DNA from: Porpolomopsis calyptriformis
Taxonomy: Eukaryota > Basidiomycota > Agaricomycetes > Agaricales > Hygrophoraceae
NCBI GenBank assembly: GCA_951640195.1
Contig: OX621173.1
Span: 41,780-105,779 of the forward strand
DNA: 64,000 nt
Reading direction: 5' to 3'
The notes below the pieces were generated by a model, which did no database searches, was not told where the DNA came from, and was given only the letters and a program-made list of their open reading frames with translations. This document shows, in pieces, positions 21,905 through 50,339 of this stretch (positions are counted from its first letter, which is position 1; every line of letters starts with the position of its first letter). The position numbers were made by a program, and so were the translations under genes.

Positions 21905-21925
21905 GGGTCCCTGAAGTCCTCCAAC
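21905..21925. other. Head-to-tail junction of the tandem copies
   Basis: Left of this point sequence matches the right end of the right copy (ending GGGTCCCTGA at 50336). Right of it starts the next unit. The junction falls 22 bp past the splice donor of the PHD gene's last visible exon, so that gene is cut here. Confidence 0.85.
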
Positions 21926-21935
21926 AACTACTTAC

Positions 21936-24238
21936 TTCGGTGATGTGGGCGTGGCGGTTGGTTTTGGCCCCTGGGAATGCGTAGACTAACTCCCCCGTTT
22001 GAACTGTAGTATGGCCTTCAAGGACGACAAGGACTGCTGAGTTCGGGAATCGCTTTATCCACTCCACCGCTTGTGAGCGCAATGCTTTGAGAGTGCGTCC
22101 ATTATTCAAGTAAACGTATATAGTCTGGAGCTGTTTATAGAATACCATAAGCCTAAATCACTCGGTCATTCGAGGAAACGTCCCTCACCTGGTCATCCTG
22201 CTCGTGCTTGTAAAAGTCTTTCAATCGCCCTGCGATATTCGGGGCGGTTAGTGTCTCTTTGACCATTCTTGCCTCACATGTGTATATGTGGATGTAGAGG
22301 AGGGGGGTTATAACCCTCCCCCCGTGGAAGAATGATTTTATTCGTGAGTTGATTGTATACTGAAGAAGGAAAATCAGTGGTGTTGTCTTGCATGAAGTAG
22401 ATCCAAACCTTGGGAAGTATTTTTTTGAGGCGACAATGCCTCAGGCAGTACCATGGAGTTCCCTCAGGAACATCCCACTGGACACACGCAGTCGAGTCCG
22501 AGGAAACACACAGCATGACACCACACCCTGGTTCACTGCATACCACAAATGACCCACCATCACTACAATATTGGCAAAACTATCCAAAACATGCAGCATA
22601 TTAGCGGGACTCGTAATAAATTATTTTTCCTCCCATCTTCTTACCATCTTTGCCGACCCCTTGCCTTGTGCTTCATCATCATCTTGAGATGATGATGCCG
22701 TTTCCGACGTCAGTTTATCCATGTTCTCCAATGAATGGAGAAAGTCTTCGCCAGGGTTTCCTGGCAGTGCATCCGTGATGCAGGTTGACGTGTGAAACCC
22801 ATAGCGCCGTCGCTTCACTGCACGGCCACCTGCAGCAGCCTTCCTCTTCCTCTTCTCGGGCACACGGTTGGAAGTCTGTTTTTTCGTCGCTCCACTTGAC
22901 GAACTCCTCCTCTCTGCACCCACATGCTTCGCATTGGGTTGAGATGGTGGATCCAGGGAGGGGGAGGATGCAGGCAACGGATGGTTGTTGATTGAAGATG
23001 ATGCTGTGAGCATCGGATCAATGCCGAAGTTTTCATCCTGAAGTGGAGGTGATGTTGGCTTGCCTCCGCTCGAGCTGGTTGCTTTGTTTAAAAAGAGTGT
23101 GTAATGTCAACAACTGTTCATCAAAGAAACAATGTAGGATGATGTACATGGAATGTTTGCCAAGTCACCGAGGTCGAAATTGAACTCGGGCTGGTTCTCT
23201 GCTATACTGCCGCGCATCACAGCAGCAGGTTGATTAGCTGTATCCTTGGCTGGGGCGGCAGGGTTGGCAGGGGCGGCAGGTGTCGCAGGGGCAGTGGATT
23301 TGGCTGGGGGGGCGGATTTAGCTGGGGGGGCGGATTTGGCTGGGGGGGCGGATTTGGCTGGGGCAGCAGGGTTGGCGGTGGCGGCGGGTTTGGCTGGGGC
23401 AGTGGTTTGGGCTGGGGCGGCGGGTTTGGCAGGGGCGGTGGATTTGGCAGGGGCAGTGGGGTTGACAGTGGCGGATTTGGCTGGGGCAGCAGGGTTGGCG
23501 GTGGCGGCGGTTTTAGCTGGGGCGGTGGTTTGGGCTCGGGCGGCGGTTTTAGCTGGGGCGGTGGTTTGGGCTCGGGCGGCGGGTTTGGCAGGGGCGGTGG
23601 GTTTGGATGCAGGAATGGGCTGGGCTGGGGCGGTGGCTTGGTTGCCGGTATTTTCAAATGTTGCGAGCATTAGTTTGTTTCCGACTTGCACCTGTTCCAA
23701 TGCTGCCAACAATGGCTCTAGACTACCACAGAATGTGGGTCATTATGCTATGCCACAGATCAGATCCAATACATACCTGTGTGAGTCGGCCTTGTCTTTC
23801 GTGAGATCGATGGGCCGAGATGTGGAGGTAGATGGAGATGGAGCCGACTGGTGGGTCTGTTCACCTACTTGGCGCTCTTGGCCAGGATCGGAAGGAGGCT
23901 GGGTGGCTTGGGTAAGGGGTGGTTGGTGGATGAGGGCATTTGGCTGCGTGCTAGTTGGTGATGATATGTTAATAAAGAGACATAAAGATATGTTTGTTTG
24001 TTTGTTCATACTCTATGCCGCGTGCAGAAATTTTGGGAGAAGGTGAGATGTTCAGGAAATCGTTGGGATTCCAACCACCTTCATTGGGTTCAGGGGTATA
24101 GCGTGGTGAAGGTTGATTGGTTGTGTGGCCTTGGGTCGGGGAGATATTCATCGGAGAGGGTGGGTTGCCTTGGGAGGAATCACTATCAGAGTAATCATCC
24201 CCATGAAAGTTGCTAGTCGCTGATTGTGTATGGGGCAT
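21936..24238 (-). CDS. PHD-finger protein with Ala-Pro-Lys repeat tract, 3' end lost at junction
   Basis: A multi-exon gene starting near 24238. Exons encode in order: a Ser/Pro/Asp-rich start; a tract of about 130 residues of AAPAKP/TTAPAKP-type repeats (23210-23640); a basic nuclear-signal region (KRKRKAAAGG with KRRR); then a PHD-type zinc finger (FCQYCSDGGSFVVC, GCGVMLC, WYCLRHC) at 22420-22580, a class that usually reads histone tails. A last exon (LQTIYVYLNNGRTL to AHITE) ends at a GTAAG donor at 21935. The next 22 bp reach the copy junction, so the downstream exons are absent. It may still make protein by reading into the neighbouring copy. Divergent from the Ulp1 gene with a CACGTG box between them. 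Confidence 0.6.
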
Positions 24239-24646
24239 TGCAGCTAATCGTGTATGAAAAGTCTGTTGTAACGGCGCTAAGGAAAAAGAGACTCACGTGA
24301 TTTGATTTTTTTTTTTTTTTTTTGAATTCAGCAAATGTATGCGCTAAGATGCACTAGTTAGTTCTATATTACTATACACAACCAACTCTGCAACTTTGTT
24401 CGCAGCCTTATAAGTGGGTTGTCCCAGGGCTTTGGCTCACGCAGTGAGTTTCATGAGTTGTGTCGTGATTTGATTTAATCGACAGGCAAACGAAGGCTGC
24501 AAGAAGTGAAGTAAAGTGAACTGGTGGCTAGTCCTATAAGGATTTCTAGGAAACCCCGAAGCCTCACATAGAGTCGCTTTGTGAGGTGAGTGTTTATGTG
24601 TGGGTTCCATTAGTGTACGCGAATCAACTTAAGCTGGAATTAAGGA
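24239..24646. promoter_or_regulatory. Divergent promoter region, PHD gene / Ulp1 gene
   Basis: About 400 bp without an ORF. It contains CACGTG at 24294-24299 and a poly-T run just after 24306. This region is seen once in the window because the left copy's equivalent lies outside it. Confidence 0.5.
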
Positions 24647-26254
24647 ATGGCTGAAGTTTTCGCCAACGATGAAAGCCTCTGGAATCAGTCGACAACCCCC
24701 CCCGTTAGCAAGTTCACTAAATGGACCTTTGGACGTAATTTCATCTGGATAGGCACGATATGCTGCGAATTGCATGATGATGGCCTCCCAGCATTCGAGC
24801 TTGCGCTCTTTGATGCGCACTACATGTATTGGCATACAAGTGCTACTGGCCAGTACAGCCATAACTACAACTACCACACTCGGTTGCGTGCTGCCATAGA
24901 GGACTACTTCAAGGGGGTGAAGGGGCATAATTTGCGCTCGCCTGAAGTCCTCACCCCATGGCTATGGCGAACATTCTGTGGATGCACCCATATCCCAGAG
25001 GGCCGCAATGACTTTATGGAACTCATTAAGAGATATGGTGCCTGGAAGGATGAAGGCATGCCTGCACCCTCTCTGGACGGTGAGTGTAATGAGATATTTA
25101 TTCACACTTCGATTTTAATTTTAATTGACACGCAGAGTGGGAAAGGGCTTTAAAAACCCCCAGTGTCCAGCTTTATCTGCCCAGGTGGCTAGAAATTTCA
25201 AAAGACCACCTAGGCTTCCCAGAGAAAAAGACAAGACTTTACGCCTGGCAATTCCATGTGTTTTTGCGAGCATGCCCAGGCAGTACTATTGCAGCTGGTA
25301 AGACATTGCGTTTTCTCTGCTTGTTGAAGACTAACTATTTGGTGTAAAAGAGGCAAACAAACCATTGAAATTTGTCGACACCCCGATCTATGCCTTTTTC
25401 TCCAAGGAAGAGCGTTCCACGATGCCTTGGATACGTCTGCTTGCAGACCCATCCTTGGTATGCCCACGCTCCACCTCCCTCGTTGACCACAAAGCTCTAC
25501 AAAAGCTTAACCCAGGCGCCGAATTGGATGACTCTATCCTAGGCTCATACATCGATCTCTGTCGGGCTCAGAATAAGGATAAAGAAGTAAAACTGATATC
25601 GACATATTTCTGGCCTCAGGTATCAAACCTAGACCACAAGGATTATGGTGGCGCAACAAGGTTGCTCTCTGCAGAGTTGGTAAGCCCTTTTCCCAAACGT
25701 TTCCTTCCTTCCATCGATCTGACAGGTTACCAAGAATGGCCAAAAGGTCAAACGTGGATGGTATGCAGCTGCTTTGTCCTCCATCAACGAGACGTTGGAA
25801 ACCTTGAAGTCCCTTTATATCCCCGTAAACCAAAACCAAAATCACTGGCTGCTGCTGAGGATGAACTTCACGGATCGACGCTGGGAGTTCTATGATAGTA
25901 TGACTGCATGCGGAAATGCGAAGACCCGGGCAGGCATTATTAAAGTGAGATTTTCAAGCCACAGAGTTCCTGATTAAATGCTGACAGGTGTCGAAAAAGG
26001 CTGTCAGCGATTATCTCACCACTGAGGTGAATTATAATCTCTCTGGGTGGAATTGCGAAACAGATATGTCTGTGCCGCAACAAAAAGGGTCCACAGATTG
26101 CGGGGTGTATACCTGTCAATATCTCAAGTGGCTGGTCAACGGTATGGCTATACCTTCAGTTTTGGAAGAGGCTGATGTTGCTGATTTTCGGAATATGATG
26201 ATCATGGAGCTGGTTTCTGGGAAGCTTAGGATTGGCGATCGCAAGGAATCTTAA
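24647..26254 (+). CDS. FGHS-like domain fused to Ulp1 (C48) cysteine protease
   Basis: Five exons (24647-25079, 25136-25297, 25351-25679, 25726-25944, 25988-26254) give 469 residues. The N-terminal 145 residues are a diverged FGHS domain: LALFDAHYMYWH, PWLWRTFCGC, RYGAW, SLDE, then Trp straight after a phase-1 intron at the same place as in the three paralogues. The C-terminal 230 residues are a Ulp1/SENP-type protease, the family that cleaves SUMO and related modifiers. The triad is complete: His348 (QNHWLLL), Asp365 (EFYDS), oxyanion Gln413 and nucleophile Cys419 (QQKGSTDCGVYTCQY). DDSILGSYIDLC matches the substrate-groove helix. Similar proteases ride on several eukaryotic DNA transposons. 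The natural target is unknown. Confidence 0.85.
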
Positions 26255-26388
26255 TATACACTCACTGTACTATTCACCTGGTTTTTGTCTGAAGATGGGG
26301 TAGCTTTATTAGCTGTAATAGCATTCAGCATTCGTTCAGCATTCGTTCATTCAGCCATTCTATTCATTTGTGCATCGCAACCTTGTCT

Positions 26389-28395
26389 TCATTTCATCAT
26401 TTCCTCAACATACTTATGAAAGTTGTGCATGGCACCTTTGGCAATGAGGGCGTGTATGCCTTTGAACGTTCTCTTCATGAAAACCAACTCGTCGTTGTCC
26501 TCAAACATAGTGAAATTTGCCAAGTCTTGTCGCTTTTTCCACTCCATCACCAGATTCTTGATCTAGTCAGAAAAATGGATGGATGCAATACCCCCATATT
26601 CGACAGAAAGACATACCATGTCTACATCAAAGTGTGACAAATCGACCCATATGCCTTTCTTGTCGTATCCTTTCGTTGCATCCGATAGATCAAGGAGGTG
26701 GGTTGCGAGGTCATCTGCATTACCGCTGAGTGGCTGAAGGAGCAATTTCACCCAACGTGGGATGGGTTCTGGTTCTAGCTTATCGTGACCATCATCCACG
26801 ACCTAGAAGAAAAAGGATGGCTACCGTCACCATCCATCTGGACTTGTACTCCGAATGACTCGAATGCAAGCCTGATACCCACCAGAGTGGTGTCTGTAGC
26901 GCGCCCCTTCCCCTTCGTATCCTAGGAGACATACATATAAGCATACACGAGGCACATGATGGGGAAAATACTATACCCTTTTCCTTTTCTCAACCTCTAT
27001 TTCTGGATCCAGACCTACAAGCAGGCTTTCGGATAGATTTCGATTTCGATTTTTCTGGACGAATTCTTGGATAAATCGCCATTGCTTCTGACTAGGTATG
27101 AAGAAGATAAGACCCACCTGCTGAGGGTGATTCACAGATGGTATAGCTGAGGAGGGTATACGCCTTGCCAATGAGGGCTGCTTAGGGCGTCTTACCTGTA
27201 CAAATCATTCAAATACAAACATAAAACTACAAACAAACCTGGAAGTCCTTGCCAGGAGAAGCAGGTAGTGACTTTGCTGAGACACCTGCTTCTGCTTCTG
27301 GTTTTGTATTCGCTTGAATTCTCTGTGTATGGTGAATATGACGCCATTGAAAAATAACATAGTCGGTACCTTTCTCATGGCCTTTTTTCTGGGGACATCA
27401 CCCCCCGTTAATGCAGGGAGGGTCTGAAAGAAATCCATAGGGCAAGATGCAACCCTCTCTCCACTCCTCAGAATCCGTGCTTTGGGGAAATCATTAGATA
27501 ATTCAACATGCTTGTCCTTGCGTGGGCGTCCTCGCTTCCTTTTTGGAGCTCATGAAATTAATTGAATGATAAGTACTTAACAAGCTATCGAATTGACATC
27601 AGGATCACACACCTTCACCTTCACCCTCACCTTGATCGTTATCATCTTGTTCATATTCGTGTTCGTGTTCATACCCAGGTCCAAGTTCAAGCTCAGGTAC
27701 ACGCTCAAGTTCCACGCAGGAGATCGCGACAGCCTCCAAACGATTGGTGAACCCAAATAAGATGCAGTCTGCTTCGAAACCGTCAAGCCAGGTGGTGCAA
27801 TTCGATCGGTCACTGAAAGGATCAACGGATTTTAGGACTTGGGGAAGCCAGTAGAATTCTTTGCTCTGCTTCCAGGATAAAAGGTCTGGGTATACAAGCA
27901 TTTATTACTCAAGCCTAGCCTTGAAAATATCGATATCTTACCATACCACCAGTGTTGTCTGGAAGAATAATGGCTTCTAAGCTCGGCTTCGAATGCTTTG
28001 AGTTTTTTGGGCTGGTGGGCCTTCCCTAGCTCCAGTCGAACACAGAACCGATGAACGACATCAGGAATCCAAAGACTGCCAGATGCAGGCTTTTCTCTTT
28101 GCGCTTCCTTTATGATATACGTCCTAAGCATGTCATACCATACCATCAACTTTCCAAGATGACTCCCTCCATCCTCTTTTTGAAATTGCAGCTGAAGCTG
28201 GCACAAGTCAATGACGGTGAATATTGGCCTCCACTTTATCGGGAGAGAACAAATATGTTGGGCCGCTTGGACTGACATGAGTCCATCCTGGGTGGTGTTT
28301 TTGATATAGCATCGTGAGGATAGCGGAACCGTGGCCTGCGGGACCTTTCCAACAGGCCACCAGCTAGTTTCGAGAGCATGCAAATCAGTCTCCAT
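26389..28395 (-). CDS. AT-hook hypothetical protein
   Basis: Multi-exon gene ending at 26389. The first coding exon reads METDLHALETSWWPVG from an ATG at 28395; an upstream 5' exon is possible. Later exons encode a Trp-rich segment (KEFYWLPQVLKSVDPF), a Glu/His/Asp run, and KRKRGRPRKDK near 27515-27550, a canonical AT-hook (core GRP) that binds the minor groove of AT-rich DNA. The last exons (IKNLVMEWKKRQDLANF to a stop) follow a clear GTATGT...TAG intron. Exact middle exon borders are uncertain. It spans 28273/28274 without a break, so the coordinate where the period happens to restart is not a real junction. No catalytic domain recognised. Confidence 0.6.
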
Positions 28396-29053
28396 GGATT
28401 TTATCAAGAGATTTAGCAAGATGCACTAAAGTGATCGGGGCAAGTATGGTTTGTTTGTCGAGATTTATCAGCTACGCCTGCTATACTTCACTGCATATAC
28501 CGTATTGAGTCGATGGAGCTGTAGATTGAGCTAAAAAGTAGAGGACAACTGTGGAATAACACTGCGCCATTCGATCCTGATCCTGCCACCTTCTTCTACC
28601 TGCCCTTCTCCCTTGCGTTCACTTAGAGGCCTGGCTGAAATAAATGCATTCCGTTTGAAGCAAAGGTTGGAGAGCAGTCTAACAGAGTTTCAGTGTACTC
28701 CTCTGAACCGAACCGCTCTGTTCCGAACAGAGTGTACTTGGTTAAAAGGTGGTGATACATTGTGGTGCAGTGAAGCTAAGAGGCAAGAACCAGGCCGACC
28801 GAAGGTGAATGGTAACATAGCGCTGTGTAGCACTGACTAACTGCATGACGCATGCAGCGTTCGCTGACAGGACATGAACCTACCGCGGTCTGAGAATTAA
28901 GGGGCGAGAAAACCAAGCCAATCGACAGTGAGCGTGGGCAGAGCTCGTTTGCCACAAGCCACAATAATCGTGGCATCCACACTATAAAATCCCCTCATTT
29001 TTTCTCGACCCCAATTCTCCACTTTCTCCCTAAGCCACCACCCACCATCCATC
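28396..29053. other. Divergent intergenic region, no gene seen (right copy)
   Basis: Equivalent of 123-780. It contains the 17-bp palindrome at 28716-28732 and the TATA-like box at 28983-28989. It lies between the AT-hook and F-box genes. Confidence 0.6.
28716..28732. promoter_or_regulatory. 17-bp palindrome (right copy)
   Basis: Same CTCTGTTC-C-GAACAGAG palindrome as at 443-459, unchanged between copies. Confidence 0.35.
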
Positions 29054-29797
29054 ATGATCCTCCTTCCCCTAGAGCTGTGGTTCAAAATAATCTCCCACAT
29101 TCAGGACAGGCCCAGGGATCTACTCGCACTATCCCTAGTGAATAGGGATGTTTCCTCCGCTGTGTTGCCCTCCCTGGCCCAATATGCCATCGTCAATCCA
29201 TTGCCACAGCCGCGACACCCTATCCACCTTGTTGAGTTCACCGCCATTTCGGAGTGGGGCGGCGATTTGGTTCAGGAACATCTGGAGATGGCCGGGAGTA
29301 ACCTGTGGGTCGCCAGGTTGGGATTCGATGCCTCCGGATGTCAGTGTTTTAGTTTATTCCTATATGTCTGGGCTTTATCACTAATCCCGCATAAAGATGA
29401 CTGCCTAGAACTCGAGCGGTTAAGCTTTTCCCGCAACTTATACCTCAGGGAAGTTACCCTCTCTGGATTACGACTAAAAATGCCGGGTCACTACGACACA
29501 ATCGATATCTCGAGAATATTTGCTGGATGTCTGATGAGTGCTTTGACCAAGTTCACTCTGGATCTTACACGGGCCAACCTGGATAACTGCGTCAACGTCA
29601 ATTGGGCCCTCCTCGACGCATATCTTTCCTCGAGACCTTCCCTTCAATCTGTGCACATTTTAGGCCCTCTGTTTGTGATAGAGGTCAACGATATCATGCC
29701 ACTGATTGGCACCAAGGGCATCCTTAGGGTGACATCCATGCCAACCCTGCCGGAACCATCGGTACCATGGCCATCCCTATCGTGGGTGGGTATGTAA
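29054..29797 (+). CDS. F-box protein (right copy, plus-strand paralogue)
   Basis: Identical in protein to 781-1524: 247 residues, N-terminal F-box (LPLELWFKIISHIQ...LVNR), no recognised substrate domain. An SCF ubiquitin-ligase adaptor role is inferred from the F-box. It forms a tail-to-tail pair with 30574-31377. Confidence 0.75.
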   Translation: MILLPLELWFKIISHIQDRPRDLLALSLVNRDVSSAVLPSLAQYAIVNPLPQPRHPIHLVEFTAISEWGGDLVQEHLEMAGSNLWVARLGFDASGCQCFSLFLYVWALSLIPHKDDCLELERLSFSRNLYLREVTLSGLRLKMPGHYDTIDISRIFAGCLMSALTKFTLDLTRANLDNCVNVNWALLDAYLSSRPSLQSVHILGPLFVIEVNDIMPLIGTKGILRVTSMPTLPEPSVPWPSLSWVGM

Positions 29798-30210: not shown

Positions 30211-30348
30211 GATCCCTAAAGCTAAATATGTAGCAACTCGTGCTGCAAAGGAAGCCTTATGGCTCCGCACCTTTATTGGTGAAGTATTTGGCCCAATCCC
30301 GTCTCAACTATCTTTTCAAACAACCAATCGGCTATCGTGCTATCAAAG
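30211..30348 (+). pseudogene. Ty1/Copia RNase H fragment (right copy)
   Basis: Same KAKYVATRAAKEALWLRTF relic as at 1938-2075, unchanged, in the hinge of the inverted repeat. Confidence 0.65.
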
Positions 30349-30573: not shown

Positions 30574-31377
30574 TCAACCTGTATCCTGCCCCGTTCCACT
30601 CCCCTTCCTTCTTCGAAACTTCCTCCTACGTATCCGCCCAGATATAGATGGCCATGGTACCAATGGTACCGATGGTTCCGGCAAAGTTGGCCTGAACGTG
30701 ACATCAAGGATGCCCTTCGCGGTGACCAGTGGCATGATATCGCTGACCTCCATCACAGACAGAGGGCCTAAAATGTGCACAGATTGAAGGGAAGGTCTCG
30801 AGGAAAGATATGCGTCGAGGAGGGCCCAATTGACTTTGATGCAGTTATCCCAGTTGGCCCGTGTAAGATCGAGAGTGAACTTGGTCAAATCTTCCATAGA
30901 ACATCCAGCAAATATCCTCGAGATATCGATTAGGTTGACGTTACCCGGCCGTCTTAGTCGTAATCCAGAGAGGGTAACTTCCCTGAGCCACACGTTGTGG
31001 AAAAAGTTTAGGTGCGTGAGTTCGACGCAGTCATCTTCATGCGGGGTTAGCGATAAAACCCAGACACATAGGAATAACCTGAAACACTGACAACCGGACG
31101 TATTGAATCCCAACCTGGTGACCCTCAGGTTGCTCCCAGCCCTCTTCAAATTTTGCTGAACCCAACCGCCGTGCCAATTCCTGATGGAGGTGAATTCAAG
31201 GAAACGAATCGGGTGTTGCGGCTTTGGCATTGGATCGACAAGCATGTATCGGGCCAGGAATGGAAACACAACGGAGGCAAAGTTCCTGTTTACTAGTGCC
31301 AGTGCGAGCAGATCTTGGGACGAGTTCTGAATGTAGGGGATAATTTTGAGCCACAGATCTATGGGAAGGGAAATCAT
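30574..31377 (-). CDS. F-box protein (right copy, minus-strand paralogue)
   Basis: Identical in protein to 2301-3104: about 267 residues with an F-box (LPIDLWLKIIPYIQ) and an Arg-rich tail absent from its plus-strand partner. The longer in-frame start at 31455 is possible. Upstream CACGTG at 31471-31476. Confidence 0.75.
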   Translation of the reverse strand: MISLPIDLWLKIIPYIQNSSQDLLALALVNRNFASVVFPFLARYMLVDPMPKPQHPIRFLEFTSIRNWHGGWVQQNLKRAGSNLRVTRLGFNTSGCQCFRLFLCVWVLSLTPHEDDCVELTHLNFFHNVWLREVTLSGLRLRRPGNVNLIDISRIFAGCSMEDLTKFTLDLTRANWDNCIKVNWALLDAYLSSRPSLQSVHILGPLSVMEVSDIMPLVTAKGILDVTFRPTLPEPSVPLVPWPSISGRIRRRKFRRRKGSGTGQDTG

Positions 31378-31492
31378 GATGGATGATGGTGGTTTTGGGA
31401 GACTTTCGGCTGCTCTATATACTAAGTCGACCTCGACGCTTTGACTCACTCTCAACTAAAATCGATTATTCACGTGGCTAGGGTCGCTTAAA

Positions 31493-35061: not shown

Positions 35062-37741
35062 CTATGGCGGTGGAAGAAAAAGTTCGGTGGATAAACATTT
35101 TTCTTCACTGAGCGCCATCCAATGCTCTCCACTGACGAGTACTTCTGACTCCATAGCTGTCAGGCTGATTCCTGCCCTTTCTAGTATCGCCTTGATCTGT
35201 TTCTGGGCCTCGTTGATTTCTCCTTCTTCCTCCTGAAAAAGGACATCCCACTCGGTCATCGGAAGGTCTGGCCTTTTCTGCTCACCCGGCAAAAGGTACT
35301 CATTCGATTTGAGAATCATTCTGGCCAGCGCCAAGAATGGCCGTCGATATATTTCTGGAAAGCTAGCTTTTAAACAAAAATGAGGGGATATCATTCATTC
35401 ACGTGCTCACTTCGACTTTTGGCGACATGTGGAAGCGCTAAAACCATGCGAGAAAGCAACCTTGAGACGTGGTGATTTGCATTTGTTGAAAAATGACCAT
35501 GCATATGGTCGAAGTCCCGCGATTGTTCAGTGAGGTGAAGCGTCTCATAGGTATAAAAGTGACCTCCCGAACAATAGCTTGGCGTGGGGGTGTATACGGC
35601 ATGCCAAATGCCAGGAGGCATAATTCTGACACATAGAATCAATATATGAGCATGAGTAATCAATTTTTAGAGCGTTAATAATATAAAAACTTACAGAATC
35701 TCCCCTGCAGAAAGAAACGTCGTGAAAATCTGAGCATGTTGATTCAGTTGGTGTAGTTGACTGAAGCAAATATCCTTGTGCAGGCTGCGCAACTTGTTCC
35801 GGGAGTTGTGACTTTTTGTGTATCTAGGTCGAATAATGGCCCAAATTTTTATCCCGGCGTGCGCATAGATCCAGGTACACAAGCCGTTAGCATCCTTGTG
35901 GGGGAATGTTACGAAGCCAGCATGCGTCAGCAGGTTCCACTGCATCATTTGCCAGGTGCACATCCGAATAACCTGTGGCCCTGGAAGGACTAGTTCTTGT
36001 CGAGTATTCGGCATCTTGTGATGCTTCGACTTGTCCTTTGGAGGGTGCTTCCAAAACTTCGCGAATGATTCATGTTTTGTGAGCTGGAATGCGAGTGCTT
36101 CGTCACTTATTCGACTGTTAAGGTTACTTGTTGAAATAAGCCAATGTACAAGCTCTCAGCACTCTTACCATATAATAGAGGGGGCGGCATTTCTCAGTGA
36201 AGGGGCATCCAGGATATTTCCACAGATGTCTACATCCTCAGATGCCTCGATAAACTCCCCCAGGGAAGAGTGGCTGTGGATGATGCCATCTGACTCCTTC
36301 TTGGACCTACCGACTGCACGCAATCTTGCGTCTATACAATATTAAACCACAGTAATCGTAGAGATGGATTTTACGTACCATGCCACTGAACTGGCTGGCT
36401 TAATGGACCCCTTGCTGCCTCGATCTCCTCCTTACAAAACGTCTCCGGACCTTCAAGATGTTGACCCTGTAATATAATGCATCGCTGATTAGCGAGATGG
36501 AGTCGCACGGCTTCATCGATGGCATGAAGTGGTTGGGAAGGTTCTCTTGGTGGGATAACGACATAGTTAGTTTCATCCAAGTCCCAGTTGTTTATCGAAT
36601 GGGTTGCAGATGAACCATCAGGTGATTTGGCAAGCACCTCAACTAATTTAGCGTCCTTAACAAAGCTTCAGTTAGCTGATCAAGAACGAGCACAAAATGA
36701 TGGACGGACTGCATTTTGATGGCCCGGAACGTGAACCCATGGAAGTACGGTTTGCGACCCATTGGCCCATTGAATCAAGGATGCGTCCTGGGGAAAGTTC
36801 ACTCCCCTCAACGAAGTAAAGTAGTCGTGCTTATTCTGGGTGAGGGGTGCTGATGTTATGCGTTATCTTCTTCTTCATAAGGATGATGCGATGCGAATAA
36901 CTTCACATACCAGATATCGTAGCTGGTTGATGTTTTTTTCGACTCGTGGGTTCTTCATCATCAGACAAAGATCGTTTTTGGGGAAGACTAGCGGCGCTCA
37001 CTCCTTGGCCCAGTTCATTGGGATGGTTGATGAATCCGATCGCAATAAGATATTGCAGCGAGTCAGATTTCTCTTGAGCGGCATCGCTTGAAGTGCCAGC
37101 CGTCGCTGGAGAGTCTGACCAAGTGTCGGTCGCAAGCATCTCGTTCCCAAATGACACGACCCTGGATATGTGACTCTTCCAATCTTCAGTGAGCGATTTA
37201 ATATCAGCTGTTGCACCCAATATTGATAAGATTACTCACCATATTGAGTCGGATCGTCATCTTCATAAGGCAGACGGTTCTCGTTTTTGCAACGATCGGC
37301 ATAGAGTTGGCGACCTGTTTGAGAGTGTCCAAATGAATGGTAGACTCTGACGGCCCATTGCTTCACCGTCTTCAATCGCAATGATGCTTGAGTGAGCAGT
37401 TTACGATCCTCAAACCACAACTCATGCTGCACGGCCAAACAGAGGTTCTGGAGGTACTGTTTGATTCGTCCTGCATGTCGTACCTGGTTCTCTGCTTCAA
37501 GGCAGCTGTGGCGATGACTCAGGTCAAGGAAAGCAAGGATAGAGCGGTAATGGATGTGTATTTCGCGAGATCGCAGTGAGTTGTTGTGGTAGAAAAAGAG
37601 CTTGAATGTTGTTTGGGTTGATAATTCTGAGAAGCGCCAGAAATTGGACGGTTTATTCAAGAGGGTGGATGTCTTGGCTGGCCATAAAGCCTCATCATCA
37701 AATAGCTCTCCTTCTTTGTTGGCTATCGGTTGGGTGGCCAT
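35062..37741 (-). CDS. FGHS-JmjC domain protein (right copy)
   Basis: Same eight-exon, 764-residue gene as 6789-9468, with the FGHS domain followed by a JmjC dioxygenase domain whose HxD and distal His iron ligands are intact. Relative to the left copy it has TTG for TCG (Ser to Leu, third exon, CpG lost here) and GAT for GGT (Gly to Asp, fifth exon). Other differences are silent or intronic; one intronic change creates a CACGTG at 35400-35405. Both copies look functional. Confidence 0.85.
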
Positions 37742-37768
37742 GATAATGAACGTATGTGTGGGGGTCAC

Positions 37769-39847: not shown

Positions 39848-40998
39848 TCAAGACCATAACCTCCATGATGGTCTGTAGTTAAGCTTTCTGTCTCCATAGA
39901 GAACCTGAACCTGAGTGTGGTTGCTTTCGAGCATTTCACCTGACGCAATCATCTCCTCCATCCTTTTCAATGCCAACCGTGCAAACTCTTCACAGTCCAT
40001 GTCTATCCAAGCGTCGAATATACCAGCCCACGTAGCTGTGTTTGTAAAGGTATTATTGAGATATATAACTTGAGGCGATGCTTGTAAACTGGATTTGGGG
40101 GAATTTTTTGCTAAGATTCTAGCGGACTGCTTGATAAAGTCAGTAGTACCCTTCACTTTCAAGCTAGTGCCAACCACAAGGAGAAGATCTAGTTGGCGAC
40201 TGGGGGTGGTAGTTAACCCAAGATCATTTTGCTGCACGTTTGCTATTTCTTCTCCTCGAGGATGTGGTTCTCCGTAAAGAATGATATTGGGTCGGAGTCG
40301 AGGCACAGTCGTTCTGCGTTTGCCCTGCTCTACCCTCTTTTCCATATTGATTTGACATTCAGTGCATTCTGGTAGTTGGCCCTCTTTCAAAGAGGGGTAG
40401 TATGGTTCGAGGATAAAAATGGAGGAGCAGCCAGGGCATCGTAGTTCCTCTAGGGATCCATGCAATGGAATGCATCGGGCTGGTCCATCACTGGGGTGAA
40501 TTTCTGAGGACATATGTAACCCAGCCTTGAGCTCCAAACCATCGATATTTTGAGTGTAAACACGGAGTAACACTCCTTGGAGGTCTAGAGCACGAAGGAA
40601 ATGGTGGAAGGCAGTGGGTTGTGCGATCGCCGCTTTCTCAGCAAGGGTGGCAATGAGCTGACAATGCAGTGATTGTTGCTTTTGGGTCTAGAACATTAAC
40701 TTGGTCAACTAATCCTCACTTGAACATATATTTCTCACTACGAGGGATGAGCTAGTAAGCAGATCAGTCAGGTTGACTCCGGTAAATCCAGATAGTGCGT
40801 TGCCAGTATATAAGCCGTCTGGTCCTCTAAAACATGGAATACCTGCAGCCACGGATATTCCTGCTCCTAGAGAGTAGGTAAGTATTTGAATGAAACATGA
40901 TGATGGGTCGATTTACCACAGAGCACGACGATTCTCTTTGCTTTCAGTATTCCATCCATTAGATCTGTTGCACTTTGTTTTATAGTGGAGGGGAACAT
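39848..40998 (-). CDS. Sirtuin (SIR2-family NAD-dependent deacylase), right copy
   Basis: Same 348-residue, three-exon gene as 11575-12725, with GAGIS, TQNIDGLE, catalytic LHG and two CxxC zinc pairs intact. No protein difference seen. Located between the stand-alone FGHS gene and the BAH gene, same strand. Confidence 0.9.
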
Positions 40999-41070: not shown

Positions 41071-42436
41071 TCAAATAAGCAAATCTGAGCTACACCGAGG
41101 GCAAGTATAGTATGTTTGGTCTGTAACGACTAATGGCTCATAAGAGTCTGTGTTATCTATGCCGAATTCTGCCTCAAGCCAGTTTTCCCAGTCAGTGTCT
41201 ATCATATTTAACCGAGACTCCTCAATGAGGTGAGCAGCTACCCATCCAGAGGCTTGGACGACACTGCGTTCCTGTGAAGAAAGCAACTTTCTAGCCTTGT
41301 TCACGATCCTAATATTTCCGGCTGTAAAATAAGTGAGACCTCCCCTAGCTGTGGGTTGGAAAGCAACTTGAAGTATAATTTTTGGGGTGTCGGCAAACTT
41401 CTCTATAGCATAGAGATTGTTAAGATACTGCTGCTGGGTAATGTTGGCAGGGGTTCCTAGGCAAGTAAGATGGGACCATCTTTTGCAGGACCAGCAGTAG
41501 CGTTGTTCCTCTGTATCGGGGGACCAAAGTGAATAACAGTGAGTTGCGCCACATATTTCTGGCTCACCCTACCACCCAATAGATTACTACAGGGTATATG
41601 TTTAGTTCAATGAATGCACCTTCAATGCCTGCCTATGCCCATCCCAGAAGTATCTAATAGAAATTTTAGTATAATAGATGGGTTGGTATTATCGTCAAGC
41701 TTACCGCATGTAATACGCGGTTACTGGAGGTTGATCTTCAATCTGATTTTTAATAATAACAATGTCGATTGTATCTACAGTTTAATTTTCAGTTCAGTTC
41801 AGTTCATTCTTTTATATCTGCTTCTCGATATAATAACCCTCACCTTCCAAGGCTTGCGCATCAATGATATCTGTAGAATCAGAGCCACACAGCTCTTGCT
41901 TTCCAAATGTGTTTATATACCTGTCAAGAGTAAGAAGAACATAGAGTGACAGGAGAAGGAGTAGGTTTTGAGATGCAACCTTTTAGTATCAGCCTTAACA
42001 TCACTTCTCTCCAACAACTGCTTGGCTGTATACATCCATGAAACCTTAGCAAGATACTTGTTCTAAAGCACATTGTCAACATTGGGTAGGGTAGCTTGAG
42101 CAGGTGTATCACCTTAGTAGTTTTTCTTATTTGTAGGATCAAACCTTTCCAGTAGTCGTCCATTATAATATTATTTTCTTCCTTTGCATGGAGGCCAAGG
42201 TGACGGATGAGGCAGCTGTGTTTGAGGGAAATAATCAAATGACTACTATTCAAGCATTATCGATAAACACTTACAAGTCATTCTTAACGAATTTGCAAGG
42301 AGAGCCTATAAAGTTTTGATTCGGAACAAATAGAACAAGGCATAGGTGATATCTCACCATCATTTGGATTAGGAACCTCAAGGTATTCTACGACTTTTGC
42401 AGATTTCCATTGTTTTTCCTCGGTTGTAGGTGCCAT
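41071..42436 (-). CDS. BAH-domain protein with split PHD-like zinc finger (right copy)
   Basis: Same eight-exon, 324-residue gene as 12798-14163. One Ile-to-Val change lies in the insert that splits the zinc finger; two further differences (GGC/GGT, CTC/CTT) are silent. The BAH strands and all Cys/His of the finger are conserved. Confidence 0.8.
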
Positions 42437-42565
42437 AATAATAAATCTACGGACCAATGTTGATTATTCGTATTATATTCCCACAGCTATATATATGTCA
42501 CGTGAATGTAGATACACTTTGTCTCGACTATTGCACAAACATAGCTCTCGATCTTAACCTCCAAT
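42437..42565. promoter_or_regulatory. Divergent promoter with CACGTG box (right copy)
   Basis: Equivalent of 14164-14292; CACGTG at 42499-42504. Confidence 0.6.
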
Positions 42566-45500
42566 ATGGCAAACCAGGCAAATGAAGGTGCAGATTATGA
42601 CAGTGATATAGATAGGATCATAGCTATGTCCTCACTAGCCAAGGTAAGCCTATCCCTAGTAGTTATGTATCTAATTCGATTCACACAATTAAATCATTAC
42701 GAGGCTAATAAAACCATAATAAACCAGGAAGGGGATTCGACTTCTAGTGGTTCAGATGATAGTGATATACGTAATATCCTGAATATGCCTTGTGCAGAGA
42801 AGATGCCAATGCCAATACCGATGCTAGGAGAAAAACATATGCCTTCCAAAAAACATATATTAATCAACAAAAAGCCAGTATACTCAGTAAGTGTATATCT
42901 GTTTTCAAGGTTAAAGTGCTCACATTATTACAGACAACGTTAATTAGCCTAAATCATCTTAACATCCAGAATTCGGATCAGCAATATATATCGATACCTC
43001 CATTGGCTCCCTTAGGTCCCCAGCCAGGTCCTTCAAGGGTCCAAAACGCAATAAGTAGAAAGGATAATGACGCTGTATGTCTCAATTAACCTATGACAAT
43101 AATAACTTACATTTATTTATTTTCCAGGTGGCGAAAGCATGGTATGTATTTTAAGAGAAATCATAAGATACTTGCGTATTAATACTGGTTAGGTTTAGTG
43201 ATTATAGCTCTCCTTCAGAGCCTTCGGTGGATATTAGAAGGAACAACTCGCGATTTGAAACCAGACACCGGTGAATAAATCTATCATTCGAAATGTTAGG
43301 TTAAATACTAAACTTTTAGAAGCTCAACAAGCCGATCATCGTCGCCAGCTAGCAATAACGGATCAGATTTCATTGGATCCAGTGAAAGTGACAGCGCTCA
43401 TTCTCATTTACTAGCAAAAAATGCCATTCGATTGAATCTACCACGATCTGAGCAAGAGCTTTTTATAGGTATGTTCTTATATTATTGGTGGTGATTAGAC
43501 TCATTAAGGATATTAGACACGAAGCTAGCAGATCCAAGGATATGGGCTTCAGCTTGTCAATCATTGGGATCTGCTAAGCCTGGAAACCACCTGGATCACG
43601 CGGTCATAGAAATTTACCTTTTGAAATCATGGTATATGTCCATTCAACCCCAGATGCCATCTCAGAGATATTCCTACTATCTAGACTCGGAAACGGTGAG
43701 CAGGGTAATAAGAGAAGAAGAAGACATCCTGTCTACCGAAATCCATAAAACTCTCCTTCTTCCACCTCACGTTGCTATCCCGAAAAAGCCTGTGTTATTT
43801 TTCCCTCCACTATCATGGCAATCTTCTGCAACCCAAAGGCTAGCTTTATTTGATTACCAGCAGGAGAAGGTTCTTGTTTTTAGCCATGGAGCTCCACTCG
43901 AAACCAATATGTACTCAGATTGGACGGAGTGGAATGGCAACTACTATTGGAGGGCTATTGCTAATGTGTTTGGGTGGATCCTGGGTAGTGAGTTGGATGA
44001 GCGAGGTCCCCAAGTAATCGAACCGAATTGGAATACGGTGAAAATCTCGTTTCTATACAGAAGAAGCATATTCATATACATATTTCAACAGAGTGAGGCC
44101 GACACTGGTTCCTGGATGGCATCGCTTTGCCAAGAAATCTTTGATAATGGTTGGATGTATTCCACAGACATTAACCAACACCCACTTGCACCCAAATTGC
44201 AATGTGTTCATGCGATGCGAGAGAGAATATTTCTCACTGCGCTTCAAACTGTACAAAAATCATATGACTTCTGGAACAAGACTCAGACCCTGCTTCGGTA
44301 TTCCATGGAACCCAATTCTGAGGTTGTGAATGATATGAAGGCTGGGCTTTTAAAATTCAAGCGTTTCGAGGTAATAGCACTTGCGCTTGCAACTGCTCGT
44401 ATGAAGTGTGAGTATTATCTCATTCCGATTACCTGTGATAATCAATCTAAAGAGGCTACCTATATTAATCAACTAGGCCATCTTCTGGATAGTCACGACA
44501 AGGATGGCAATGCCAGCAATGACGACAACAATCACAATGATGATGACAATGACAATGACAATGATGACAACGATGATGATTCCATTGTAATCAACCTACC
44601 ACCTCAGCCTTCCAGAAGGTCTCTACCTGAAATCCAACTTCCAGAGGTTGAGCTAAATGGGAATGGGGGTGAAGAAGCATTAGCAACAAGCGTTGATGAG
44701 CGGCCTTTTGATGACTACGAATCAGCTATGTTGGTTTGCTCCGAGGATCAAGCTGATATCATTCCAAACACGTGGACCTTTGACACCAATGGAATGCTTG
44801 TATTGGGCAAGCACTGGAGTATCTGGAGGGATAGAGGCTATAGGTTGCAGGCCGATTTTTTCTCTATGTTCAATAACCAGGAACCGGTTCTCCTCAATGA
44901 CCACCTTCTTCCACACTGGGATTCAAGTGATCAAGCAAGTGGATGTTTACCATCATCTCCAGTTGCATACCCATCCTCGTTATCTTCTCATTCTTCTGAG
45001 GTGCTGAATTCCCTACCAGCTATGGACAACCCAGATGTGACTGTGATGGGTGCTCAGGATATGTTGGATGAGGCGGGAGGGGTGGAAGGGACATCAGAGA
45101 GCCAGGGTGTGTTTGTAAAAGGTAAAGCACGCAACAACAAATTCATCTACTTCGACTTGGAGAAGGATAGAGTAAACCTGGACGATGAAGAAGTGTCAGT
45201 GTCGGTGGATATCGACAGCGTCATATGGGTCACGCATAAACCACAGTTCATTGGTCCAATCAATATTCACCTTCTTCCACTGTTAGACGACAAACCTCCA
45301 TTCTCTATCAACAATCATGTCTATGTCCAGGTTCTACAACCACCTACCACTCGAAATCCTAGGCAGAGGTCTAAAAGGTATCCACTTAGTGCCTTGCCAC
45401 ATACCCATTTCGGGCAGATGGGTCAAGGATCAGGCCAATTTAACACCTACGTCTTCTTCCCTCGTATGATTAGGAAAGACCCAGGAACGCATAGAATGAC

Positions 45501-47933
45501 TACTCTGATGCCAAGGGAGGTACAGGAGTTGTGGTTCTCACAAGTGATCATGCCTGCTCTGCCAGTGGTTTTAGCCAACTACACCGGAATTATGGAGTAT
45601 CTTCCTACAAGCGTCAGTAATCTCCAATGGAAAATAGGGACAAGACGTACGACCAAGACCATTCCCCTCACACCTGAAGCATTTTCTTCCATGCGAACCA
45701 CTCTCTGCGACATCATAAATAACCAGCCCGATCTCCTAGGCCGATTCGGGTCCTTTTTCTTTGTTGTAGATGCTCGAGGTATCAAACTGCTCTCTAAGCA
45801 GCACCACCCAACCGAGAATATATATCAGGCACTCTGTTCGATGATTCCTAACATGGACTGGGATTATATGAAGGACCGATCGCATGGAGAACTCTTGCTT
45901 GATCTTGGGATTTCATACCATCCTCCTTCTAGGGAGGATCAGGAGCCATTGGTAGGGCTGTGGAGGTTAGATAGGATCGACGACTCGTACGACCTTATGG
46001 GGATGAAAAAAGGAATGACCCATTATACTGCCATGTTTGGAGCTTATGGAGGGAGACAGGCTGAAACCAAGTTGAAGAAAAGTCGGCTTGTACACCTTTG
46101 CTTCCGATCCAGCTACAACCTTTGCTTTGAGGTGGTGCGACTTCCTGGCCAAACGAACTACCTATGTGATGACTGTGATGCAGTCAAGACAAATGACCGA
46201 TTCATGACTAGCTGTGATCACTGGAAAAAGCTGTTTCAATCTTCTCAAATCCAGTCATTCGGCGTTAGAGAAGAAGTTAGAGGGAGTGGGTTAGCCATTA
46301 TAAAGCTTCTTGATGTAGCATCTGAAAAGGTAAGCAGCGAAATAACTGCAAACTAGAAATGTCTAATGATTGCCAGGCACAAGACTATATGTCATCTGAC
46401 CCTATCATTTGGATCAAGTCGAGCCTCTTTTTCAAGTTGTTGGCAAGAAGGCTAGCAGAGTTTCAAAACGTCCAACTACACCTTTCACGAAATCGACCAA
46501 GCAACTATGGAATGATGGCTACGCTTATCATCCACCTGATTAAGCACACCATGGTCACGCCAAGGATAAAGCACACATTCTTGAATGATGTGTTGCGAGA
46601 CCTTCGTTTCAGTTCGATAATGTGGAGGTTCGGAATGTTCTTTCTTCACGACCTCAAGTTGAAGAAAGGAGTGCTATCTCTAAGAGAACTACCGGAGGAG
46701 GATCCAGCTGAGGTTATCCAAGCGTATGGACAGTCCTTGAAGAAGCCACAGGCAACTCAAGCCAACCAGCCATATCACCTTATTCAAATGTATCAGCAAG
46801 ATGCGTGCCCTTGGGGTCCCGATCCATCTTGGTCAAGAATTCAGAAACTGTTGGAAACCGAGCCAGAGATTTTCCTTAGGGAATGGAGGTTGGATGATGA
46901 CTGGGAAGCTCCTGAACTGCTTTACACGAAGCTGTTGTTTGTTGAGTTCACGCATCAGCTGTGGCTAAGTCTGGCAGAGCAGTTTGCATCAGCAGGTGTT
47001 TTACCCAAGCCAACCACAGTTCAGGAAGCAATGGAGACTTGGACGGTACCTGCGATTCAGCATATCATAGGCATTGACCGTTGCCGATTCCTTCCTTCGA
47101 GCTGTGGCCTTAAAGGAAAGCTTCCTTTGAGTCACTCCCGTGATCTATCATTTTCAGCACGTCGGGCAACCTTCTTCCCTGAACAAACTATCCAGATCCC
47201 AGAGAATTCAGTCTGGAAACCATACACCAAGCCTGGAGGATATATCTCCACTTACCACCAATATCTTGTGGATTGGGATATGGATGAAGGTGATCAGCTC
47301 TGCCGTGAATTGGACAACATATTTGGCCAGTTACAATGCCTTCCTGTAGGTGGCCTATCGAATAAAAAGGGGAAACAAGTCATATGGGGGATGAAATCAG
47401 GCAAGATCAACTTTATTTCGAATTCAAAGTTCTATCGGATTGAAGAAATTGGGAAAGAGGTGGCTGCGCGTCCACGAACTCAGGTCCTAAAAAGGCCTCA
47501 TGCTTCAAAGAATATACTTCAGAGACGACTAGATGAAACCTTGGGGAGATCGATAAAACCACCTATTCGGAGCCGAAAGTCTGCCAAAATCTACCAAAAA
47601 CGAAAGCCTCCTGTGAGACGGAAAGCAGACAACAATCCTTCAGGTTCAGAGAGCGGGAAAGAGCAACAGGTTAGGGTTACTCGCTCAAAGGCCAAGGCTG
47701 CCCAGAAAGACGAGGGAAGAAAGGGGGTGAGTGGTGTGCGGATAACTCGGTCAAGAATGAACGCTGCTAGGAAAGATGCGGAGAGAGAAGATTCAGGTTC
47801 AGGAAGACATATAGTAGGTAGATCTCAGTCAAGAGTCAAGGCTGCTAGGGAACGGGCAGATTTAGAGTCTGATTCTGATTCCGATTCATTAGAGTACACA
47901 GATGAGCCAGGATCAGAGCAATCTAGTAGCTAA
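42566..47933 (+). CDS. Giant hypothetical protein with degenerate Ulp1-like region (right copy)
   Basis: Same eight-exon, 1662-residue gene as 14293-19660. Apart from one silent TCC/TCT change near the 3' end, no difference was seen in 5.4 kb. The region resembling Ulp1 (DWTEWNGNYYW to ADTGSW) again lacks the catalytic Cys. The final Arg/Lys-rich tail and acidic end are preserved. Confidence 0.75.
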
Positions 47934-47987
47934 TGTATCGATTTGAAGATTATATATTCACAGGTCTATTCTACCTATATGTGTTAC

Positions 47988-50192
47988 ACTGCTCATTGTG
48001 GTACCCCAATCAGTCTGCCCATGGGGATGTGGTTATTCTGGGATGTTATCACACTAATGCTATTGATTGAACATAACATGCTGATGGTTAGAGAGCTCGG
48101 TGAGAAGTTGAAGGTATAACCTCTGATACCTCTTGCATGCTAATTACGGTACCCCAATTATTCCGCACATGAGGATTGGACTACTCCTGATGTTTGTAGC
48201 ACCAATGCTATTGATTGAACATAAAATCCTGATGCTTAGAGGGCTCTCTGATAAGTTGAAGGTATACCCTCCCATACCTGTTGTATACTTATTGCGGCAC
48301 CCTAGTTAATCCACACATGATGATTGAACTATTCCTAACCTTTGTAATACTCATGCTATTGATTGAACATAAAATCCTGATACTCGGAGAGCTCTGTGAT
48401 AAGTTGAAGGTATATCATCCGATACTTCTTACATACTATACCCCAATCATTCCACACATGAGGATTAGACTACTCCTGACCTTTGTAACACTAATGCTAT
48501 TGATTTAACATAAAATCCCAATGATTAGAGAGCTCTCTGATAAGTTAAAGGTATACCACCCCATGATATCTTATATACTTATTGCGGCACCCTAGTCAAT
48601 CCATACACAAGGATTAGACTATTCCCAATGTTTATAACACTGATGCTATTGATTGAACATGAAATCCTGATGCTCAGAGAGCTCTGTGATAACTTGAAGG
48701 TATACCCCCCCCTACCTCCTGTATACTTCTTGCGGCACCCCAGTCTATCTACACATGATGATTGGACTATTCCCAATGTTTGTAACACAGGTGCTATTGA
48801 TTGAACATGAAATCCTGATGCTCAGAGAGCTCTGTGATAAGTTAGAGATATACCCCCCTATACCCCTTATATAGCTTATTGCAGTGCCTCATTCTGTCCA
48901 TATATTGTCATTCCGAGCATCTGTAACACTGGTGCTATTGATTGAACATGAAATTGTGATGTTTAAAGAGGTCTGTGATAAGTTGGAGATATACTCCCCC
49001 ATACCCCTTATATAGCTTATTGCAGTACCTCATTCTGACCATATATTGTTATTCCGAGCATCTATAACACTGGTGCTATTGATTGAACATGAAATTGTGA
49101 TGTTTAAAGAGGTCTGTGATAAGTTGGAGATATACTCCCTCATACCCTTTATATACCTTATTGGAGTGCCTTATTCTACCCATATATTGTTATTCCGAGC
49201 ATCTATGACACTAGTGCTATTGATTGAACATGAAATTATGATGTTTAAAGATGTCTGTAATAAGTTGGAGATATACCCCACCATACCCCTTATATAACTG
49301 ATTGCGGTACCCCAAATGGTCTATAACTTAGGATTTTTGTATTCCCCACCTCTATGACACTGGGGCTATTGATTGAATATAAAACCCAGGTTTTTAAAGA
49401 CCTCTGTAATAAGTTGGAGATATACCCCCCCATACCCCTTATATAGCTTATTGCGGTACCTTATTCTGCCTATACATCAGGATTTTGTTATTCCGAGCCT
49501 CTATGACACTACTGCTATCGATTGAACATGAAATCCTGATTTTTAAAGAGCTCTGTGATAAGTTGGAGATATACCCCCCCATACCCCTTATATAGCTTAT
49601 TGCGGTACCCCAAATGGTCTATAAATCAGGATTTTTGTATTCCCAGTATCTGTGACACTAGTGCTATCGATTGAACATAAAATCCTGATTTTTAAAGAGC
49701 TCTGTGATAAGTTGGAGATATACCCCCCCATACCCCTTATATCACTGATTGCGGTACCCCAAATGGTCCATAAATCAGGATTTTTGTATTCCCAGTATCT
49801 GTGACACTAGTGCTATCGATTGAACATAAAATCCTGATTTTTAAAGAGCTCTGTGATAAGTTGGAGATATACCCCCCCATACCCCTTATATCACTGATTG
49901 CGGTACCCCAAATGGTCCATAAATCGGGATTTTTGTATTCCCCACCTCTATGACACTGGGGCTATCGATTGAATATGAAACCCCGATTTTTAGAGCAGTC
50001 TATAGCTACTTATACCTATGCCTCCTCCTAAAACCTTACTATCTTCCACCACGACATACCAAATGCTCTAAAAATCGGAATTTTCTGTGGGCCCACCATT
50101 AGTTCACTGTGCCTATCGAATGGACATGAAATTGTGATTTATAGAGTGCAATACAATAGCTGGGCTGCATAATGGTATAAATGGAGTATTTT
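47988..50192 (+). repeat. Minisatellite, about 15 units of 141-150 bp (right copy)
   Basis: Same array as 19715-21770 with one additional 149-bp unit near 49640-49940, where two successive units are almost the same. Differences from the left array are denser than in the genes and include a few transversions and C-tract changes, as expected for a minisatellite. It is followed by an AT-rich tail to 50336. Confidence 0.9.
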
Positions 50193-50339
50193 ACATATAT
50201 CTCAAGAATGGGACCGCCGATTTTTTTAATTTATGGCTTAAACTGATTGTATTTGGATGCCCTAACGATCCCCCAAAGAATTTTGAATTAATTTTGTGCC
50301 AGCATTTTGGTCATTTTGTTGATAATGGGTCCCTGATAT

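Follow-up and report, generated by a model that had tools for sequence, protein, structure and literature searches.

A candidate mobile chromosome-terminal block carrying chromatin and SUMO enzyme genes in Porpolomopsis calyptriformis

The window analyzed here, a 64,000-nucleotide stretch of Porpolomopsis calyptriformis DNA, contains a cassette of chromatin and SUMO enzyme genes. This cassette may belong to a mobile block that forms the end of a chromosome, of which it would be the centromere-proximal part. The block would have a fixed inner end, be copied as DNA and replace chromosome ends; the probability of this reading is put at about one half. The block, up to ~53 kb in size, seems to be added repeatedly at chromosome ends via one fixed, sequence-specific end.

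The repeated unit and its fixed inner end

The gene-rich unit is present twice in the window with a period of 28273 (Table 1). Units 1 and 2 differ at 25 places in their first 21503 positions, past which the register is shifted by one additional 149-bp repeat. The terminus of unit 1 joins unit 2 inside gene 1, and the target at this joint is G^AA (the caret marks the joint). Position 21915, which the initial annotation took as a natural border, is not one, and 21915-50336 was rejected as a complete unit: copies on C1, C2, C3, C5, C8 and C16 continue leftward of 21915 (the longest adds ~25 kb), and the window copy is cut within a gene. The longer copies carry extra TET/JBP-like and alpha-kinase genes. 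The TET/JBP-like gene matched with E 6.7e-6 (raw frame 6.1e-5), its 25.9 bits lying under the cut-off of 34.9.

Table 1. Coordinates of features in the window
Feature	Coordinates	Strand	Remarks
Unit 1	1..21914	+	proximal part of a block copy; cut by window start; fixed terminus at 21914
~149-bp tandem repeats ahead of terminus	unit 1: 19778-21570; unit 2: 48051..49992	+	
Fixed terminus, unit 1	21893..21914	+	TTTTGTTAATAATGGGTCCCTG plus A
Unit 2	21915..50336	+	block copy, left-truncated at 21915 within gene 1; fixed terminus at 50336
Gene 1, cut by truncation	21936..24238	-	Ala/Pro-rich repeats, then Cys-rich finger; exon borders uncertain
Gene 2, Ulp1/C48 SUMO-protease-like	24647..26254	+	462 residues, 5 exons; Pfam 5e-22
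Gene 3, AT-hook-like motif protein	26971..28395	-	motif by eye; no Pfam match
F-box-like open frame (weak)	29051..29797	+	E 0.0071; arm of inverted repeat
Second F-box-like open frame (weak)	30574..31455	-	E 0.0026; inverted duplicate of the 29051..29797 frame
Gene 6, no assigned identity	33297..34731	+	N-terminal domain common to genes 6, 7 and 8
Gene 7, JmjC dioxygenase, KDM2-like	35062..37741	-	JmjC after the N-terminal domain common to genes 6-8
Gene 8, no assigned identity	38117..39313	-	N-terminal domain common to genes 6, 7 and 8
Gene 9, sirtuin (SIR2)	39848..40998	-	Pfam 8.6e-30
Gene 10, weak PHD-like zinc finger	41071..42436	-	one relative, P0011
Gene 11	42566..47933	+	1690 residues, two large exons, no Pfam match
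Fixed terminus, unit 2	50315..50336	+	TTTTGTTGATAATGGGTCCCTG plus A
Target side	50337..64000	.	other subtelomeric DNA outside the unit; GC-rich repeats
Decayed OrsD-matching gene, target side	58540-61407	-	

At the right border, 50336, the unit ends in a fixed terminus with the sequence ...GGGTCCCTG^A, which occurs 104 times in the genome (the reversed pattern, used as a control, occurs 0 times). The termini on C5 (332515/347961), C6 (125565, 127483) and C10 (150418) are ambiguous. Of the listed termini, 79 lie within 250 kb of the end of a chromosome-size contig. Sixty-eight of these face inward; the 11 that face outward count against the preferred reading. All 36 distinct flanks next to the terminus begin with A[A/T]. 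Where an uninterrupted reference is available (21 cases), 18 targets read G^A[A/T] and 20 have the G; GA[A/T] makes up 3.9% of positions. The fixed ends are joined at many different sites, often within an older copy of the same orientation (all 14 in-element targets share the orientation of the newcomer), and the truncation points are spread over the block. At its outer side one unit, on C16, follows ~25 telomere units and runs ~53.3 kb to its terminus (this copy was read in part). It is the single unit seen meeting a telomere, a further point against the preferred reading.

Nine outward-facing terminus pairs suggested a transposon of 28.8 or 52 kb with terminal inverted repeats. This candidate was rejected because the left outer flank in eight of the nine is the same dispersed 208-bp repeat, followed by fatty-acid-synthase-like or Gypsy-like sequence (both identified by eye), and the right flanks differ among the pairs. 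None of the nine pairs showed matching target flanks around inverted ends, the mark of such transposons, KDZ included. A KDZ transposase was also rejected as the mover, its 19 genome matches all lying outside the located units (the nearest ~2 kb outside a terminus on C8).

The proposal that these genes move as a group on a repeated, apparently mobile unit is well supported by the SIR2 scores and by full-length copies of the Ulp1 gene. For SIR2, 65 of 74 genome-wide matches score like unit copies (assigned by score, not by the flanks of each). The scattering at host loci that would speak against a cassette was not seen for SIR2, the sole named domain family searched genome-wide. The Ulp1 gene aligns over its full length, introns included, in 39 of 40 scored copies, and introns are retained in unit copies. 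Diverged copies contain 0-2 stops per gene with dN/dS of 0.40-1.16, values that weigh against the preferred reading.

Genes of the cassette

Exon-joined gene models were produced with our own simple splice-aware predictor and contain errors. The sirtuin and the Ulp1 protease of the initial annotation are confirmed. The SIR2 match of gene 9 is above the Pfam cut-off (nearest solved chain 5ol0, 2.3e-19), and re-reading one splice junction in the DNA brought out its CGAGIS and TQNID motifs and its Cys pairs. Gene 2 likewise passes the Pfam cut-off for Ulp1/Peptidase_C48; its nearest match is SENP1 (9.6e-9), with which the catalytic His/Asp/Gln/Cys align. The JmjC assignment of gene 7 stands in part. 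The HxD, Lys and distal His that bind Fe/2OG align with KDM2A, the nearest match (4.7e-5), but the Pfam match (2.3e-4, 22.0 bits) is just below the cut-off of 24. Two relatives of this gene occur in Lentinula and Suillus. The catalytic residues claimed to be intact in the sirtuin, JmjC and Ulp1 proteins are present in all three, and two of these three domains pass curated cut-offs.

The remaining chromatin and ubiquitin domains are less distinct. An AT-hook-like KRKRGRPRKDK can be seen by eye in the gene 3 model (minus strand), in line with the AT-hook reported earlier. The two F-box proteins and the PHD finger correspond to matches that are weak and all below Pfam cut-offs: E 0.0026-0.0077 for the F-box-like frames, which form an inverted repeat of 82%, and E 0.0042-0.0051 for the PHD-like match in gene 10. 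The Cys-rich finger of gene 1, which is without a Pfam match, may be the PHD that the annotation had in mind. A BAH domain had also been named; neither the gene 10 model, itself uncertain, nor three raw frames gave a Pfam match to it. Gene 11 is conserved in other sequences, with six relatives at 43-66% identity; viral contigs and plasmids yielded no relative. Its predicted structure has a mean pLDDT of 31.4.

How the block might be copied

In the preferred reading a trans-acting enzyme would cut at G^A[A/T] close to the end of a chromosome, joining the fixed end there. DNA copying would then extend the block to the telomere and replace the distal arm, and the 28-52 kb tandem periods could afterwards spread among ends by ordinary recombination. 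The chromatin and SUMO enzymes would be cargo that aids expression, spread or tolerance of the block in silenced subtelomeres; it is plausible that the cargo opposes silencing. The idea of the initial annotation that the cassette may edit chromatin is tentative, given PHD and F-box matches that are weak and a BAH domain without support, and its account included neither the fixed inner end nor a telomeric outer end. Three further points count against the preferred reading: the scanned parts of the block contained no mobility gene, a left end of the block's own, or left remnants past the contigs or since lost, may exist, and an assembly of 50-kb repeats may contain errors.

A giant DNA transposon with two ends, possibly driven by a rolling-circle (HUH) enzyme, is unlikely, although several observations resemble what it would produce. 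Its left end would be unseen, nested insertions at G^A[A/T] would truncate older copies, and left remnants would lie beyond the contigs or have been lost. The ...CCCTGA end agrees with the CTRR consensus of Helitrons, target duplication was not observed, and the genome has 35 Helitron_like_N matches. Single-strand insertion, for which IS608 is reportedly a precedent, could account for polarity. Against this stand the uniform orientation of the 14 in-element insertions and the two telomere-bearing ends followed in full past the outermost unit (C12 left, C1 right), where the left part of the block has no match between the telomere and that unit. The fixed end also lacks a stable hairpin, its fold of -3 kcal/mol being equaled or bettered by 193 of 200 shuffles. 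On a RepHel gene in the block the evidence is ambiguous: the Helitron_like_N matches lie elsewhere in the genome, and no RepHel gene was matched in the block models and open frames scanned. One of the matches is 51.7 kb inward of a terminus on C10, and 3 kb of sequence from that place matches no unit sequence. The idea that the fixed end is the 3' end of a resident Helitron was refuted, since the RepHel element beside one terminus ends 1.9 kb short of it. No 5' TC end in common with an autonomous copy was found; with up to 3 mismatches allowed, the genome has just two occurrences of the 5' end of the nearest RepHel element. The target G^A[A/T] is not a Helitron-type A/T insertion: with the A assigned to the element, the following base is T in 18 of 36 flanks and A in the other 18. 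A relation of the 149-bp repeats to the resident Helitron 5' end (local score 27; the highest of 1000 control segments scored 25) had been chosen post hoc and was discarded.

Ordinary subtelomeric exchange with break-induced replication, as in Y' or helicase-gene subtelomeres, would make the terminus an inherited shared breakpoint. Near-identical copies at many chromosome ends, the telomeric location and exact periods (29310 and 49281, for example) are all what such exchange would give. An inherited breakpoint would, however, retain a single flank, and this one is joined to 36 distinct flanks with A[A/T] invariant. As the sole process exchange is contradicted by these flanks and quite improbable; as a secondary amplifier it is likely. 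Least probable is a telomere-attaching retroelement of the HeT-A or Penelope type, RNA-copied and 5'-truncated. In form, such an element would match the constant inner end, the polarity and the outer truncation, and the portion of PMC7473861 drawn on here reports Penelope-like elements at Agaricus bisporus chromosome ends. The block nevertheless keeps its introns and has genes on both strands, and no reverse transcriptase was found in the models and open frames scanned (a subset of frames).

More tentatively, and on balance doubtfully, the DNA-copied block could represent a class of one-ended mobile elements, with a site-specific inner terminus and the telomere as the other end. Such elements would replace the arm from G^A[A/T], and their sirtuin, demethylase, SUMO-protease and TET/JBP genes would keep a heterochromatic home permissive. 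To our knowledge, every mobile element that attaches to telomeres is a retroelement. If true, a block copied as DNA and having a sequence-specific inner end would be a further way of rebuilding chromosome ends, and it would explain the origin and sustained identity of subtelomeric gene arrays. Its cargo makes a selfish-DNA response to chromosome-end silencing directly testable.

Comparison with known systems

Starships of the Pezizomycotina are giant cargo-carrying mobile DNA in fungi. The block is also giant and carries cargo, but the frames scanned gave no Pfam match to DUF3435, the tyrosine recombinase that is the Starship captain, and two-ended insertion was unseen. Yeast Y' elements are multi-copy, near-identical DNA by telomeres, a description that fits the block as well. 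It also fits the subtelomeric RecQ/telomere-linked helicase regions of A. bisporus (PMC7473861, in part). No site-specific fixed inner end is reported for either in the literature consulted, and the gene content of the block differs.

Helitrons, including HELPO of Pleurotus, share with the block intron-bearing or captured genes, a CTRR-like end and no target duplication seen (PMC4289320, sections consulted). HELPO elements, according to the same sections, reach 13.7 kb and have a 5' TC end, a hairpin and RepHel, none of which was found for the block. In fungal DNA transposons with TET/JBP genes, the dioxygenase is proposed to help the element escape methylation (PMC12730594, excerpted), and the block is alike in being apparently mobile DNA with a putative dioxygenase that might counter silencing. 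The transposons described in those excerpts carry a transposase (KDZ, Plavaka, EnSpm, Helitron and others), whereas none was found for the block, whose gene set is wider.

The block forms polar head-to-tail arrays whose inner end is constant, a feature of telomeric retrotransposons. The telomeric arrays of Drosophila HeT-A, TART and TAHRE consist of RNA-copied retroelements of a few kb. Like copies of the block, these lie head to tail at chromosome ends, with fixed polarity, a constant inner end and truncation that varies on the telomere side. Unlike them, the block is ~53 kb long, contains introns and genes on both strands, is joined at G^A[A/T], and has an outer telomere repeat in the one copy where that end was seen.

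Gene content and copy number of the unit

The window (C11:41780-105779 of a 33.5 Mb genome in 17 contigs) contains two near-identical units arranged head to tail with a period of 28273 bases. About 11 genes per unit come from our own splice-aware predictor and, for the inverted F-box pair, from open frames. In the initial annotation, this set was described as a chromatin and SUMO/ubiquitin toolkit. Two of its enzymes are confirmed by Pfam matches above cut-off, SIR2 (8.6e-30) and Ulp1 (5e-22). The JmjC domain falls slightly below cut-off (2.3e-4), but its catalytic residues align with those of KDM2A, the nearest solved relative. Matches to F-box and PHD domains are present but weak, and the proposed BAH domain has no Pfam match. 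Genes 6, 7 and 8 have an unnamed N-terminal domain in common (phmmer 2.5e-32 to 1.5e-11), so part of the gene set arose by duplication. Gene 7, the JmjC gene, has two relatives, named as Lentinula and Suillus proteins, as would be expected in an Agaricomycete. Gene 11 lacks a Pfam match in the two exon frames scanned; it has six relatives at 43-66% identity and is thus conserved beyond this genome. Among the open-licence papers listed in literature searches, including PMC7473861, PMC4289320, PMC9674265 and PMC12730594, none was recognised as a description of this gene set or end structure.

A SIR2 search of the genome gave 74 matches, 65 with E ≤ 9.3e-20; these 65 best are read as unit copies, by E value rather than by a check of each flank. 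Counts for gene 11 and the Ulp1 gene are lower bounds because only part of their candidate places was scored (40 of 78 and 40 of 56). The places lie mostly close to contig ends. In diverged copies each gene has 0-2 stops, and dN/dS is 0.40-1.16; maintenance therefore does not extend to every copy, which counts against the terminal-block reading given below.

The fixed inner terminus and its target

The right, centromere-proximal end of the block is fixed. Its sequence, TTTTGTTRATAATGGGTCCCTG, occurs 104 times in the genome at ≤2 mismatches, and the reversed pattern 0 times. Location and orientation rest on the 100 listed places. Among these, 93 are on the 14 chromosome-size contigs, 79 of them ≤250 kb from a contig end, and 24 of the 28 ends carry a listed terminus. 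The left end of contig C13, which begins inside a terminus, is a 25th.

Forty-nine junctions with ≥40 bases of flank were analysed, 36 of them distinct. The first flanking base is A in all 36, and the second is divided equally between A (18) and T (18). An uninterrupted reference was available for 21 distinct targets: G precedes the joint in 20, and the target is exactly GA(A/T), joined after the G, in 18, whereas this motif occupies 3.9% of element positions. The remaining three have a reference unlike the flank, either at 90-93% identity or unmatched in the first five bases. By our count, all 14 block-internal targets are in the same orientation as the newcomer.

The outer side of the block and the chromosome ends

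Position 21915, taken initially as the left border of the cassette, is instead a truncation inside gene 1, joined there to the terminus of unit 1. The block continues leftward past this point in C1, C2, C3, C5 (only ~1 kb), C8 and C16, and truncation positions are scattered. The extra left DNA read in C1 carries a TET/JBP-like gene, an alpha-kinase (1.4e-14), a TPR protein and a Copia gag fragment. The outermost C16 unit, traced by its two ends, SIR2 and Ulp1, extends ~53.3 kb from its terminus to the stretch of ~25 telomere units that closes the contig. The inner units of the C16 array begin at about base 2870 of the C1 reference.

At C12 left, a helicase-like gene (RecQ type, by eye) lies next to the telomere, and inward of it comes a truncated unit. 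At C1 right, the order inward from the telomere is a kinase-like fragment (by eye), GC-rich repeats and then a truncated unit. The block's left part has no match in either telomere-to-unit stretch. The helicase-gene DNA ends inward in the same 30 bases at both ends, joined to two different block positions, and a perfect hairpin of 7 bp lies 14 bases upstream of CTAG. Two copies of this DNA were seen, and it may represent another terminal block whose end is fixed and, in this case, Helitron-like. The telomere repeat at C12 left, C1 right and C16 right mixes TTAGG with TTAGGG, and four perfect TTAGGG units were searched for without a match.

Coordinates of features in and around the block
Feature	Location	Fetched stretch	Strand	E value	Remarks
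Decayed gene matching OrsD (PF12013)	window 58540-61407		-	5.1e-8	few relatives in genome, matches at five places
G-skewed tandem repeats	window 52200-54950				GC-rich (up to 67%); like DNA near C12 and C1 telomeres
Extra left DNA	C1:97001-120870				
P-loop-like protein (by eye) of longer copies	C1:100331-103375	L029			884 residues, no Pfam match
TET/JBP-like dioxygenase gene of longer copies	C1:116728-118767	L030-L031		6.7e-6	below Pfam cut-off
Terminus of outermost C16 unit	C16:165567				
Inner boundary of helicase-gene DNA, C12 left	6526-6556 of stretch	L040			
Same boundary, C1 right		L105			
Helitron	C11:432038-444337	L093-L094			common 5' boundary at AGTATCTATACT, CTAG end; RepHel gene interrupted by Gypsy element
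Helitron_like_N match, 51.7 kb inward of fixed terminus	C10:202111; terminus at C10:150418				3 kb there matches no unit sequence

Proposed mode of spread

A terminal block joined to a cut chromosome end best explains the features of the copies: the fixed inner end, the sequence-specific joint, the polarity, the varying extent of truncation towards the telomere, and the telomere at the outer end. A cut end would receive the block through its fixed inner end. Inward-facing termini make up 68 of the 79 near contig ends. The 11 facing outward count against this reading, as does telomere contact in one unit only. Of nine outward-facing pairs examined, eight have on their left outer side a dispersed 208-bp repeat with TGT...ACA ends (40 scored among 155 candidates), which adjoins several such termini (L095-L098; flanks on C4, C7, C9, C13 and C15); with that flank, the pairs resemble subtelomere pieces that were duplicated or inverted. 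A further point against the reading is that repeats like the units are prone to assembly errors.

Ordinary recombination does not suffice as the sole source of the junctions, since it would not join a single breakpoint to 36 distinct flanks. Copying through RNA is disfavoured: the five-exon Ulp1 gene aligns full length in 39 of 40 scored copies (the other stops at base 1551 of 1608), and the scanned frames gave no match to a reverse transcriptase. The block does not agree with Helitrons in hairpin, 5' end or target, and one apparent link to Helitrons was refuted. Known systems drawn on for comparison are HeT-A, the Y' elements, IS608 and the Starships.
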